Assembly (NCBI GenBank): GCA_013389015.1
Contig: JACAEE010000017.1
Location: forward strand, 1-64,000
DNA from: Hydrogenophilaceae bacterium
GTDB taxonomy: Bacteria; Pseudomonadota; Alphaproteobacteria; Caulobacterales; Aquidulcibacteraceae
Reading direction: 5' to 3'
DNA: 64,000 bases
Shown: positions 20,100-22,801 of the stretch, one piece after another
Layout: each line of letters begins with the position of its first letter
How positions within the stretch are numbered: the stretch's first letter is position 1
Program-made: the position numbers and the translations under genes
Notes under the pieces: generated by a model
What the model saw: the letters and a program-made list of their open reading frames with translations, nothing else
What the model was told of the DNA's origin: nothing
Database searches by the model: none

Positions 20100-20292
20100 G
20101 ACTCCACAAAGGTCGCCGTGTGGGGTTGCGCGGCCTCGATGCGTTCAATCAGCATGGCACGAGCGGAATCAAGTCGGCGAGACGGTTTGTCGGCGCGCGC
20201 AGGACAATCACAGCGATCGCGTGCGCATTGACATTCTGCTGGAACGCCAAGTTGCGATCCACATCGACGCACTCGTCGAGGAGCACTCTCAT
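20100..20292 (-). pseudogene. Broken DUF5615 (PIN-like) toxin gene
   Basis: It starts with ATG at 20292, overlapping the DUF433 stop by ATGA exactly as in intact pairs. The first nine residues MRVLLDECV match the DUF5615 N-terminus, but the next (DVDRNLAFQQN) belong about 40 residues later in the family, so an internal deletion is evident. After VIVLRAPTNRLADLIPLVP the frame ends at TGA, while the family's C-terminal part continues one frame over ([18 protein letters not shown]). Deletion plus frameshift leave no working toxin. Confidence 0.7.
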
Positions 20293-20501
20293 GAAAGGGC
20301 TTCGATCAGACTTTCCTTGGCGTCCTCCAGGAACGCCAGGACTTGTGCGCGAGAAACGGACGGGAAGCCTTCCAGGAAGTCATCGATGGACTCGCCGGCC
20401 GCCAGATAGTCGAGCAGAGTCTGGACCGGAACGCGCGTGCCCGCGAACACAACGGCGCCGCCCATGACCTCTGGGCGTGCTGAGATCACTTGCGTTTTCA
20501 T
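20289..20501 (-). CDS. DUF433 antitoxin
   Basis: A 70-residue DUF433 protein. The family signature is clear: ISARPEVMGGAVVFAGTRVPVQTLLDYLAAG, then a second helical part ending SRAQVLAFLEDAKESL. DUF433 proteins are winged-helix-like and are the presumed antitoxins of DUF5615 PIN-like toxins. Here the partner gene is broken, so this is an orphan antitoxin that still looks intact. Confidence 0.85.
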   Translation of the reverse strand: MKTQVISARPEVMGGAVVFAGTRVPVQTLLDYLAAGESIDDFLEGFPSVSRAQVLAFLEDAKESLIEALS

Positions 20502-20542
20502 GCCGCCAGAATGCGTCTCCGGCCCAACGATTCCAACCCGCC

Positions 20543-20570
20543 TTGAATCTCGCGCGCCGCGATGTTATCT
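20543..20570 (+). promoter_or_regulatory. Candidate promoter for the EF-Tu leader
   Basis: TTGAAT (20543-20548) and TTATCT (20565-20570) are 16 bases apart, close to a housekeeping sigma-factor promoter. Transcription would begin near 20577, about 20 bases before the short leader ORF. The pattern is weak on its own; its place in front of a leader ORF and a terminator is what makes it worth noting. Confidence 0.35.
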
Positions 20571-20595
20571 CCCGCGCCCGAATTCAGAGGTCGTC

Positions 20596-20673
20596 ATGAT
20601 CCGGTTTGAGAGCGAATTGAACGTGTCAGCGGCGGCGCGAGCCGGCGTTGAAGCACGCGCACGTCTATTCTGA
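20596..20673 (+). CDS. Putative 25-residue leader peptide
   Basis: A 25-codon ORF that begins MIRFESELNV and ends ARARLF, with AGAGGT five bases before the ATG. It holds many Ala and Arg codons in its second half (AAARAGVEARARL). Two hairpins, the second an intrinsic terminator, start 17 bases after its stop. That order (promoter, ORF with ribosome site, tandem hairpins, terminator) is the layout of an attenuator leader. No homology is claimed; expression is unproven. Confidence 0.4.
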   Translation: MIRFESELNVSAAARAGVEARARLF

Positions 20674-20689
20674 CCGCTTCTTGGTGATC

Positions 20690-20751
20690 GAGAGGCGCCC
20701 GCCTCTCCGTGTCCAAGACCCCGGAAGGCGCCGCCTCCGGGGTTTTTCTTT
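20690..20751 (+). terminator. Tandem hairpins with intrinsic terminator in EF-Tu leader
   Basis: First hairpin: GAGAGGC-GCCC-GCCTCTC (20690-20707). Second: ACCCCGGA...TCCGGGGT (20718-20743) with internal AGG/CCT pairing, followed by TTTTTCTTT, a classic rho-independent terminator. GAGGCG of the first stem (20692-20697) can instead pair with CGCCTC of the second (20732-20737), which would break the terminator. Such exclusive pairing is what attenuation requires. A third perfect hairpin, GCGCCG-TTTT-CGGCGC, follows at 20752-20767. Confidence 0.65.
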
Positions 20752-20783
20752 GCGCCGTTTTCGGCGCGGACATGGAGCGCTCC

Positions 20784-20870
20784 ATGCGCAAGACGATCTA
20801 CGCGCTGACGCGCGCAGCGCTTCGCAAGCGGCGCTCCGCGTCTGAACGACAACGCAGCCCCGCGCGCTGA
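20784..20870 (+). CDS. Putative second short ORF in EF-Tu leader
   Basis: A 28-residue, very basic ORF (opens MRKTIYALTRAALRKRR) downstream of the terminator. Another ATG lies 12 bases earlier in frame. No clear Shine-Dalgarno. Its stop lies inside a hairpin (CCCCGCGCGC / GCGCGTCGGGG, 20859-20884). It may be chance; it is listed because it falls between the terminator and EF-Tu in a stretch (20502-20990) without any other gene. Confidence 0.2.
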   Translation: MRKTIYALTRAALRKRRSASERQRSPAR

Positions 20871-20990
20871 CCGCGCGTCGGGGACCATAGCCGCGCGCCG
20901 CGCGGGACACGTTTTTCACTTTCACCCATGCGGGGCGCCTTGAGGCGCGCCGCAAACGCGGCCGCGCGCCGCGAACAGGAGGACGCACCC

Positions 20991-22175
20991 ATGTCCAAAG
21001 TGCATGTCAATGTCGGCACGATCGGCCATGTCGATCACGGCAAGACCACGCTCACCGCGGCGATCACGCAGGTGCAGGCCGCCCGCCTCGGCGGCATAGG
21101 CCTCGCCTTCGACGAGATCGACAAGGCGCCGGAGGAGAAGGCCCGCGGCATCACCATCAACACCACGCACGTGGAGTATGAGTCCGATGCGCGCCACTAC
21201 GCGCACATCGATTGCCCCGGCCACGCCGATTACGTGAAGAACATGATCACCGGCGCCGCCCAGATGGACGGCGCGATCCTGCTCGTCGACGCGACGAAGG
21301 GCGCCGCCAAGCAGACCATCGAGCACATCCTGCTCGCCCGCCAGGTGAGCGTGCGCCACATGATCGTGTTCGCCAACAAGATGGACATGCTCGATCCATC
21401 CGAGCGGGACGACATGAAGGCGCTCATTGAGCTGGAGATCGGCGCGCTCCTCGCGCAGCACGGCTACGAGAATGCGCCGTTCGTGTTCGGCAGCGCGCTG
21501 AAGGCGCTGGAGGCCGTCGCGCGCGGCGATCTCGCCGATCCCGATGTGCACGCGATCGTCGCGCTCGTCGCGGCGCTCGATGCGCACATTCCCGATCCGG
21601 TGCGGGACTACGATTCCCCGTTCCTGATGCCGATCGAAGGCGTGCACGCCATTCCCGGCCGCGGCACGGTCGTGTCCGGCCGTGTGGAGCGCGGCGTCTT
21701 GAAAGTCGGCGACGCCGTCGAGATCGTCGGTCTCGACAATGACGGCGCCGAAGTCGTCGTCACCGGCACGCAAGCCTTCCGGAAGAATGTTCCGGAGGCC
21801 CGCGCAGGCATGAATGTAGGCCTGCTGCTGCGGGGGCTGAAGCGCGATGAGATCGCGCGCGGGCAGGTTCTGTCCGCGCCCGGCGTCATCAAGGCGCGCA
21901 CGCACGGCAAGGCGCAGATCTTCGTGCTGACGGCGGAGGAGGGCGGCCGGCATACGCCGTTCGCCAGCGGCTACCAGCCGCAATTCTTCTTCGGCGTCAC
22001 CGACGTGACCGGCGCGATCGTCACCGACGGCGATGCGCTCGTTGCGCCGGGCGACACGGCTGAAGTGCGCTTCGCGCTGCGTAAGCCGGTCGGCATCGAA
22101 AAGGGCATGCGCTTCGCGATCCGCGAAGGCGGACGCACAATCGGCGCCGGAATCGTCACCGACGTGGCGGCGTGA
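20991..22175 (+). CDS. tuf: Divergent elongation factor Tu paralogue
   Basis: A 394-residue EF-Tu with all GTPase motifs: GHVDHGKT (residues 12-19), [22 protein letters not shown] and GSALKAL. Domains 2 and 3 are complete to the [10 protein letters not shown] ending. It is clearly diverged: the N-terminus is short, the usual GPMPQTREH reads GAAKQTIEH, and YRPQFYFRTTDVTG reads [14 protein letters not shown]. The last changes fall on E. coli Arg333 and Thr334, positions known for pulvomycin resistance. No ribosomal-protein or fusA genes adjoin it, so it is not the str-operon copy. AGGAGG lies 7 bases before the ATG. Confidence 0.93.
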
Positions 22176-22180
22176 GGGCG

Positions 22181-22219
22181 GCGGCGCCCGGCGCGGAAAC
22201 GCGTCGGGCGCCGCTTATT
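22181..22219 (+). terminator. Intrinsic terminator after EF-Tu
   Basis: Perfect 10-base outer stem GCGGCGCCCG / CGGGCGCCGC closed by an inner GCGCG-GAAA-CGCG stem-loop, followed by TTATT. The GC-rich stem with a GAAA tetraloop is very stable. Its tail overlaps the DnaA box in front of gcrA. Confidence 0.8.
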
Positions 22220-22282: not shown

Positions 22283-22330
22283 GTTTTTGGCGGTTGAATG
22301 ACAGCGTTTCTGATGGCCGGGGGGCTGATC

Positions 22331-22801
22331 ATGAGCTTTTGGACAGACGAGAACGTCGCGCTGCTGCGCAAGCTCTGGGGCGAGGGCCGCTCGGCGCGCG
22401 ACATCGCTGCGCGCATTTCCGGCGCAACGCGAAACTCCATTATCGGTAAGGCGCATCGTCTTGGCTTGCCAAGCCGTACGCCGCTGACGCGCGTTGCGCC
22501 GCGTCCTAAGTCCGAGAAGGCCCCACGCGCCCGCGCGCCGCGGCTGCCGCGGTTCGTCGCGGAAGCGATCGATGCGGTCGTCGTGCAGCTTGCACCGCAC
22601 GGCTTCTCCGATGGCGCGGTCGCGACCGTGCTCACCGTCAAGGACGGCATGTGCAAGTATCCGATCGGCGATCCCAAGGCGAAAGACTTCGCTTATTGCG
22701 GCCGCGACGCCTGCCGCGGTTCGTATTGCGCCGATCACGCGCGCTTGGCGTACACATCGCCGCGCCGTTTCCTGGCGCCGGGGCGCCGGGACTTGTTCTG
22801 A
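22331..22801 (+). CDS. gcrA: Cell-cycle regulator GcrA
   Basis: GcrA, a sigma70-associated activator that reads CcrM methylation and drives cell-cycle genes in Caulobacterales and relatives. The 156-residue protein has the N-terminal DNA-binding part (SFWTDENVALLRKLWGEGRS; RNSIIGKAHRLGLPSR), a Lys/Arg/Pro linker and the conserved C-terminal sigma-binding end with cysteines (MCKYPIGDPKAKDFAYCGR; SYCADHARLAY). The helix-turn-helix is slightly different from classic GcrA (ISGATRNS). Start chosen at the ATG before SFWTDE, which matches the family and follows a G-rich ribosome site. Confidence 0.92.
   Translation: MSFWTDENVALLRKLWGEGRSARDIAARISGATRNSIIGKAHRLGLPSRTPLTRVAPRPKSEKAPRARAPRLPRFVAEAIDAVVVQLAPHGFSDGAVATVLTVKDGMCKYPIGDPKAKDFAYCGRDACRGSYCADHARLAYTSPRRFLAPGRRDLF

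Follow-up and report, generated by a model that had tools for sequence, protein, structure and literature searches.

A candidate ribosome-dependent transcription attenuator preceding a divergent, spare gene for EF-Tu

EF-Tu ranks with the most abundant cellular proteins, and several natural antibiotics and toxins act on it. Here we describe a leader that precedes a divergent, spare EF-Tu gene in alphaproteobacteria and that is likely, in our judgement, to attenuate transcription in a ribosome-dependent manner, as the trp and his leaders do. It shares with the E. coli his and trp attenuators a short translated leader, a chain of mutually exclusive stems, an intrinsic terminator and, as we read it, the position of a ribosome as input; the alternation of B:C plus D:E with C:D plus E:F in the his attenuator parallels that of A:B plus C:D with B:C plus D:E in the present leader (segments A to E are defined below). 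It differs from both in that it controls EF-Tu, contains no run of cognate codons and often consists of two tandem units. Moreover, no guard stem was recognised upstream of A, so that, by prediction, the EF-Tu leader would be ON if left untranslated, in contrast to those of trp and his.

Antibiotic-sensing attenuators that combine a leader peptide with a terminator also precede genes that rescue translation or confer resistance, hflXr/rli80 in Listeria and tlrB in Bacillus, which a stalled ribosome turns on (PMC6310831, PMC6851288). The EF-Tu leader departs from these in gene, phylum and RNA, an R-x-R motif is not general among its peptides, and its predicted OFF signal is occupancy of the stop codon. 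The toiL upstream ORF of topAI in E. coli is likewise a short ORF sensing many translation stresses, its targets being a ribosome-binding site and Rho (PMC12121999), whereas the EF-Tu leader would act on an intrinsic terminator. Attenuation upstream of a tufA-containing operon is known from the rpsL leaders of the str operon (rpsL-rpsG-fusA-tufA), but these are ribosomal-protein leaders located far upstream, with no leader peptide for tuf (PMC2965389). In agreement with the original prediction, which knew of no described case for tuf, our search of the searchable literature found no published tuf attenuator of this kind.

Regarding the gene itself, Streptomyces EF-Tu3 (tuf3, actEF-Tu) is described in the accessible text of two reports as a divergent, stress-expressed spare that is resistant to EF-Tu antibiotics (PMC4342817, PMC12309360). 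It is actinobacterial, that accessible text mentions no leader attenuator, and its likeness to the clade studied here is drawn from these descriptions. EF-Tu is also encoded by huge phages (PMC7162821). Copies on huge-phage contigs fall into the same clade in our tree and carry the same R333G and E259Q changes, but mostly lie near tRNA genes and have no such attenuator visible in the upstream sequences read.

Anatomy of the leader

The window, that is, the whole 64,000-nucleotide stretch analysed, contains the following features, assigned from the sequence itself together with the comparisons named in each line:

20542-20568, + strand: promoter-like pair, −35 CTTGAA at 20542-20547 and −10 TGTTAT at 20563-20568; the block recurs in relatives
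20586-20591, + strand: ribosome-binding site AGAGGT of leader ORF 1
20596-20673, + strand: leader ORF 1, 25 codons, MIRFESELNVSAAARAGVEARARLF followed by a stop; counterpart ORF in all 27 leaders compared
20675-20684, + strand: segment A (CGCTTCTTGG), just 3' of the leader stop, pairing with B in the predicted ON fold; swap test and shuffling of A
20688-20697, + strand: segment B (TCGAGAGGCG), pairing with A (ON) or C (OFF); swap test
20700-20709, + strand: segment C (CGCCTCTCCG), 3' arm of B:C (OFF) or antiterminator pairing with D (ON); swap test and folding
20718-20730, + strand: segment D, 5' arm of the terminator plus the first loop base, with 20721-20730 as the target of C; swap test
20733-20747, + strand: segment E, 3' arm of the terminator plus a T5 run; swap test
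20784-20870, + strand: ORF 2 (28 codons), probably what is left of a second attenuator unit; Caulobacter, Asticcacaulis, Sphingomonas and other relatives have a second leader peptide at the equivalent position
20991-22175, + strand: divergent EF-Tu, 394 aa, with Pfam domains GTP_EFTU, D2 and D3
22183-22212, + strand: inverted repeat GGCGCCCGGCGCG gaaa CGCGTCGGGCGCC, a possible transcript end, from sequence only

The promoter-like pair, the 25-codon ORF with its ribosome site, a 7-bp hairpin, the terminator, the second ORF and an EF-Tu gene some 240 bases further on had all been proposed for this locus, and all of them can be read in the sequence. The pair is non-consensus, and a simple sigma-70 scan scored no promoter at 20542-20568; nevertheless, a CTTG(A/C)A ... 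GTTA(T/C) block occupies the same place in most of the relatives' leaders. The 7-bp hairpin pairs GAGAGGC with GCCTCTC (20690-20696/20701-20707), and the intrinsic terminator at 20718-20747 has the form ACCCCGGAaGGC-GCC-GCCTCCGGGGT plus T5, with a duplex of about −24.7 kcal/mol; a simple terminator scan misses it, probably owing to one bulged base. The alternative C:D duplex (20700-20709 with 20721-20730) comprises 9 bp and one bulge. Segment A, immediately 3' of the leader stop, had been overlooked in the anatomy first drawn. The EF-Tu start codon lies at 20991, 243 bases past the T run of the terminator, and no curated Rfam family matched the leader at its gathering score.

Conservation and pairing of the leader segments

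We compared 27 alphaproteobacterial upstream sequences from several orders, the window included. All 27 follow a common plan, consisting of a short ORF, segments A-B-C-D-E and then EF-Tu, so that leader ORF, alternative stems and terminator are conserved in front of the divergent spare EF-Tu, as the attenuator originally predicted at this place had called for. A terminator resembling CCC(C/T)GG...GGC...GCCTCC.GGGTTTTT follows the leader ORF in nearly all of them, and A lies directly after the leader stop, overlapping the last codons in three Rhodobacterales leaders. We then searched 396 genomes of the window's order with a sequence-only model built on the leader region, which yielded nine places with E ≤ 5e-13, and the nine genomes concerned are exactly those carrying this EF-Tu (in one, G062, the leader lies on another contig than EF-Tu, near a contig end). 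Of the weaker matches before other genes (E 1e-7 and weaker), those read, L173-L177, look like ordinary gene-end terminators, and on these a wider use of the leader was rejected. This confinement to one gene, together with the co-variation of the alternative stems described below, speaks against the short ORF and terminator being an independent small gene or sRNA, with the EF-Tu start site located downstream. The 243 bases that separate terminator and EF-Tu in the window would suit such an arrangement, but in single-unit relatives (L096, L097, L102) only ~45 bases lie between the terminator and the conserved element that precedes the EF-Tu ribosome site, and we hold an independent small gene or sRNA very unlikely.

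To evaluate the pairings, segments A to E were delimited in each leader, and the duplex energies of native pairs were compared with those of pairs swapped between species in 10,000 shuffles. This test was used because alignment with MAFFT and RNAalifold let the arms slip out of register, recovering A:B and D:E but missing B:C and C:D. Across the 27 leaders, A:B, B:C, C:D and D:E were each stronger in native than in swapped combinations (0/10,000 for each), a permutation p that is not exact since kinship makes it too small, although six control pairings share the same kinship. The same four were supported with 17 clade representatives (z −4.2 to −5.2). Conversely, A:C, A:D, A:E, B:D and B:E gained no support in this test, and C:E was marginal (p 0.04 with 27 leaders, 0.06 with 17 representatives). 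The contrast between the four supported pairings and the controls argues that two alternative folds are under selection, namely A:B with C:D and B:C with D:E. Mutually exclusive folds had indeed been foreseen, but with B (GAGGCG) pairing to terminator strand E (CGCCTC) as the antiterminator. That complementarity exists in the window and reaches −18.9 kcal/mol in some Rhodobacterales leaders, but native B:E pairs are no better than swapped ones (p 0.18 with 27 leaders and 0.22 with 17 representatives); C:D and A:B co-vary instead, and a B:E antiterminator now appears extremely unlikely.

We further calculated, for each leader, the equilibrium folding of a partial transcript that stops where D ends, before E is made, either complete, representing a stalled ribosome, or with the stop codon and the next 12 bases removed, representing a ribosome at the stop, this masking length being an assumption. 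With A free, C:D reached at least six expected pairs in 26 of the 27 leaders, whereas upon masking of A it fell below five in all those 26 but L105, with B:C mostly replacing it; L105 and L108 barely switch. In the window, the expected C:D pairs were 8.1 with A free versus 2.7 with A masked. On average, C:D swung by 6.1 pairs in native leaders versus 2.2 when A was shuffled; in the window taken by itself A makes a modest difference, as 8 of 100 shuffled versions of A did equally well. These calculations predict that finishing the leader results in termination, whereas failing to finish it results in read-through. Since D:E is much more stable than C:D, the ON state would have to be kinetic.

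Leader peptide and proposed switch

The leader ORF encodes exactly 27 aa in 13 of the 27 leaders and 9 to 30 in the others. Its peptide is poorly conserved except for a recurrent end, [Tyr/Trp]-x-hydrophobic-[Asp/Asn/Glu]-x-stop. Tyr occupies codon −5 in 15 of 27 leaders, usually as TAT, and is concentrated in the last seven codons (20/189 versus 7/428 elsewhere), as is Trp (8/189 versus 1/428). Leaders mostly have one or two Tyr/Trp codons with no run of them, and none occurs in the window. In fact, the peptides of the window and its sister G003 end in ARARLF and ARARVF and have lost the common Tyr; the window's A-R-A-R-L-F, at 20650-20670, includes an R-A-R that resembles a macrolide arrest motif, and R-A-R near the end is confined to these two among the 27 leaders. 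A dependence on queuosine-type codons (Tyr, His, Asn, Asp) was also considered and rejected, as the enrichment rests on Tyr.

These features could be read as an amino-acid attenuator, in which the leader senses a single charged tRNA, that of Tyr or, in Rhodobacterales, of Trp, and EF-Tu is made in starvation. The enrichment near the end and the frequent Tyr at codon −5, where a stalled ribosome would just leave A free, fit such a sensor. Nonetheless, the codon is usually single, the amino acid varies by lineage, window and G003 have neither, and the gene controlled does not serve Tyr or Trp biosynthesis, which makes this explanation rather improbable in our view. We likewise regard as unlikely an arrest-peptide switch in the style of ermC, tlrB or hflXr, in which the nascent leader arrests the ribosome together with a drug and the input is a ribosome-binding antibiotic instead of EF-Tu failure. 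The favoured length of 27 aa, the recurrent peptide end and the R-x-R of the window, which is like the macrolide arrest motif (PMC6851288, PMC6310831), are what an arrest peptide might present; on the other hand, the peptide is otherwise poorly conserved, R-x-R occurs there only in the window lineage, and leaders of 9 to 14 aa exist as well.

We favour the attenuator of the trp/his type, and from the predicted folds its input is probably a leader peptide left unfinished. Transcription would start at ~20575, and prompt translation of the 25 codons would place a ribosome at the stop, where it covers A; B:C and D:E would then form, and RNA polymerase would terminate at ~20747, keeping the spare EF-Tu off while elongation works. 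A ribosome that stalls or does not finish would leave A free to form A:B and release C, whose pairing with D would block the terminator and permit EF-Tu transcription. The likely input would be any elongation failure on the leader, possibly caused by an elfamycin-type antibiotic or a toxin blocking EF-Tu or by a shortage of charged tRNA, and the spare EF-Tu would then restore translation. We infer EF-Tu inhibition or aminoacyl-tRNA shortage as the trigger, which fits both the predicted logic and the changed residues of the protein. In favour of the attenuator count the persistence of leader and gene together while their neighbours differ, a leader model that is strong only with this EF-Tu, the tandem units of many relatives that repeat the same logic, the concentration of Tyr/Trp in the last seven codons, and R333G plus E259Q in every cellular protein compared; the non-consensus promoter and a window lineage devoid of the conserved Tyr weigh against it. 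If true, a switch operated by stop-codon occupancy would report failing elongation in a general way. It would also account for the carriage of a divergent EF-Tu at no cost and offer a ready test of inducible EF-Tu replacement.

Further regulatory RNA elements are documented in front of the same spare EF-Tu gene. Most Caulobacterales members, Sphingomonas and Filomicrobium encode a further leader peptide, and in most of them another terminator comes after it. The second peptide has 28 to 36 aa in most, often ends in AAWxxxT, and was noted upstream of EF-Tu at L086, L088, L099, L100, L105, L107, L109, L110 and L111. A fold switch of the second unit upon masking after its stop is predicted in G074, G108, L099, L105, L107, L109 and L110; the automatic search missed the second terminator in some of them, which weakens this part of the evidence. 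In the window and G003, ORF 2 is retained with no T run after it, and the second attenuator unit therefore looks decayed in both. Additionally, at least 22 members possess, just before the EF-Tu ribosome site, a two-hairpin element made up of TTGGCGCGCCAATGCCAATGGCC and a long variable hairpin (for example L097:5185-5255), with an apical loop that is UGGCCA, UGAUCA or UAGCUA in most and always palindromic. It is absent from the window, G003, G108 and L086, and among the matches listed in the 396-genome search, exact copies of its core occur only at the spare EF-Tu.

The spare EF-Tu and its phage relatives

The product of 20991-22175 has all three EF-Tu domains complete (GTPase, D2 and D3 by Pfam) and is 77 to 91% identical to intact members of its clade, compared with ~57% to housekeeping EF-Tu. 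The housekeeping tuf genes of the same assembly are apparently cut off at the ends of two contigs (C67 and C84), which identifies the window copy as a spare. Its clade is patchily distributed, nine of the 396 genomes searched in the order having a member, and a scan of GTDB genomes retrieved 29 loci, with hosts including Caulobacter, Asticcacaulis, Hellea, Roseobacter, Pseudophaeobacter, Roseovarius, Tateyamaria, Sphingomonas, Roseitalea, Filomicrobium, the gammaproteobacterium Pleionea, a Nannocystaceae MAG and others. A branch with support 100 separates the 28 cellular members compared from all housekeeping EF-Tu, and within the clade species of different orders intermix. Gene neighbours vary between loci while leader and EF-Tu remain joined, and this, along with the mixed orders in the tree, points to horizontal transfer of gene and leader as one unit. 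The flanks examined revealed neither a conserved neighbourhood nor an antibiotic cluster, a downstream gene seemingly common to Rhodobacterales loci was discarded because the ORFs are unrelated, and plasmid matches were all below 60% identity, with no spare EF-Tu copy among them. One copy, in G013 (L070:3869 onward), leaves the family sequence after ~90 residues and has an intact leader. At the Pleionea locus (L112:5137-5193) the spare EF-Tu comes after a leader peptide of another kind (MIILLIKALNRFNWDGPD) and a terminator, with an RNA 3'-phosphate cyclase gene (RtcA) further upstream.

Positions that are near-invariant in housekeeping EF-Tu and altered in the clade include R333, E259, D216, F218 and Y160. 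R333G and E259Q are found in 28 of 28 cellular members, Y160Q/H in 27 (in all 28 if Y160F is counted too) and T334V/A in 23, while, among other positions associated with elfamycin resistance, Q124 and G316 are unchanged in the clade and A375 in 27 of 28. We take R333 to be a pulvomycin-resistance site, and R333, T334 and Y160 to be sites known from pulvomycin and kirromycin resistance; R333G also occurs in the phage members, so it may have a cause other than resistance. Given that Streptomyces EF-Tu3 is reported to be antibiotic-resistant, resistance to EF-Tu antibiotics is a plausible role for the spare EF-Tu by analogy. In the alignment, Thr382 and Gly59-Ile60, presumably the target sites of Doc and Lit, respectively, look unchanged, and escape from these two is thus no obvious reason for having the spare.

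Members of this clade also occur on huge-phage contigs from IMG/VR, 55 to 619 kb in length (L181:4290-5453, L182:4287-5462, L183:4293-5450, L184:4284-5462, L185:2-943 and L186:4314-5459), whereas in phage genome records every EF-Tu match stayed under 60% identity to the phage query. In a quick tree with long branches, these copies together with the cellular members stand apart from housekeeping EF-Tu (branch support 100). In that tree (support 84 to 97) the cellular copies are enclosed by phage copies: L183 branches as the sister of the proteobacterial clade, and the copy from Nannocystaceae joins L181. Translation of all six phage copies revealed both R333G and E259Q. Most lie near tRNA genes. 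In L181 and L186 a tRNA-Tyr gene immediately precedes EF-Tu, and some copies have a gene for RtcB ligase, a tRNA synthetase or tRNA nucleotidyltransferase as a neighbour. None of the phage EF-Tu genes read had an apparent leader with the attenuator plan upstream. The accessible part of a 2015 survey gives actinobacterial EF-Tu as the only distinct subfamily known (PMC4342817); the present clade looks like a second distinct bacterial one, linked to huge phages. A phage origin followed by adoption by cells is possible from these relationships. We tentatively extend this to a scenario whose chances we rate somewhat below even, in which many alphaproteobacteria adopted a huge-phage EF-Tu as an emergency factor, silenced by an attenuator, single or in tandem, that responds to unfinished leader peptides, and released when antibiotics, toxins or phage attack disable the normal EF-Tu or tRNAs.

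In the window, the spare EF-Tu is directly followed on its 3' side by a gene for a GcrA cell-cycle regulator (22298-22801), and a DUF433 gene at 20289-20501 on the minus strand is possibly the antitoxin of a pair with the adjoining gene.
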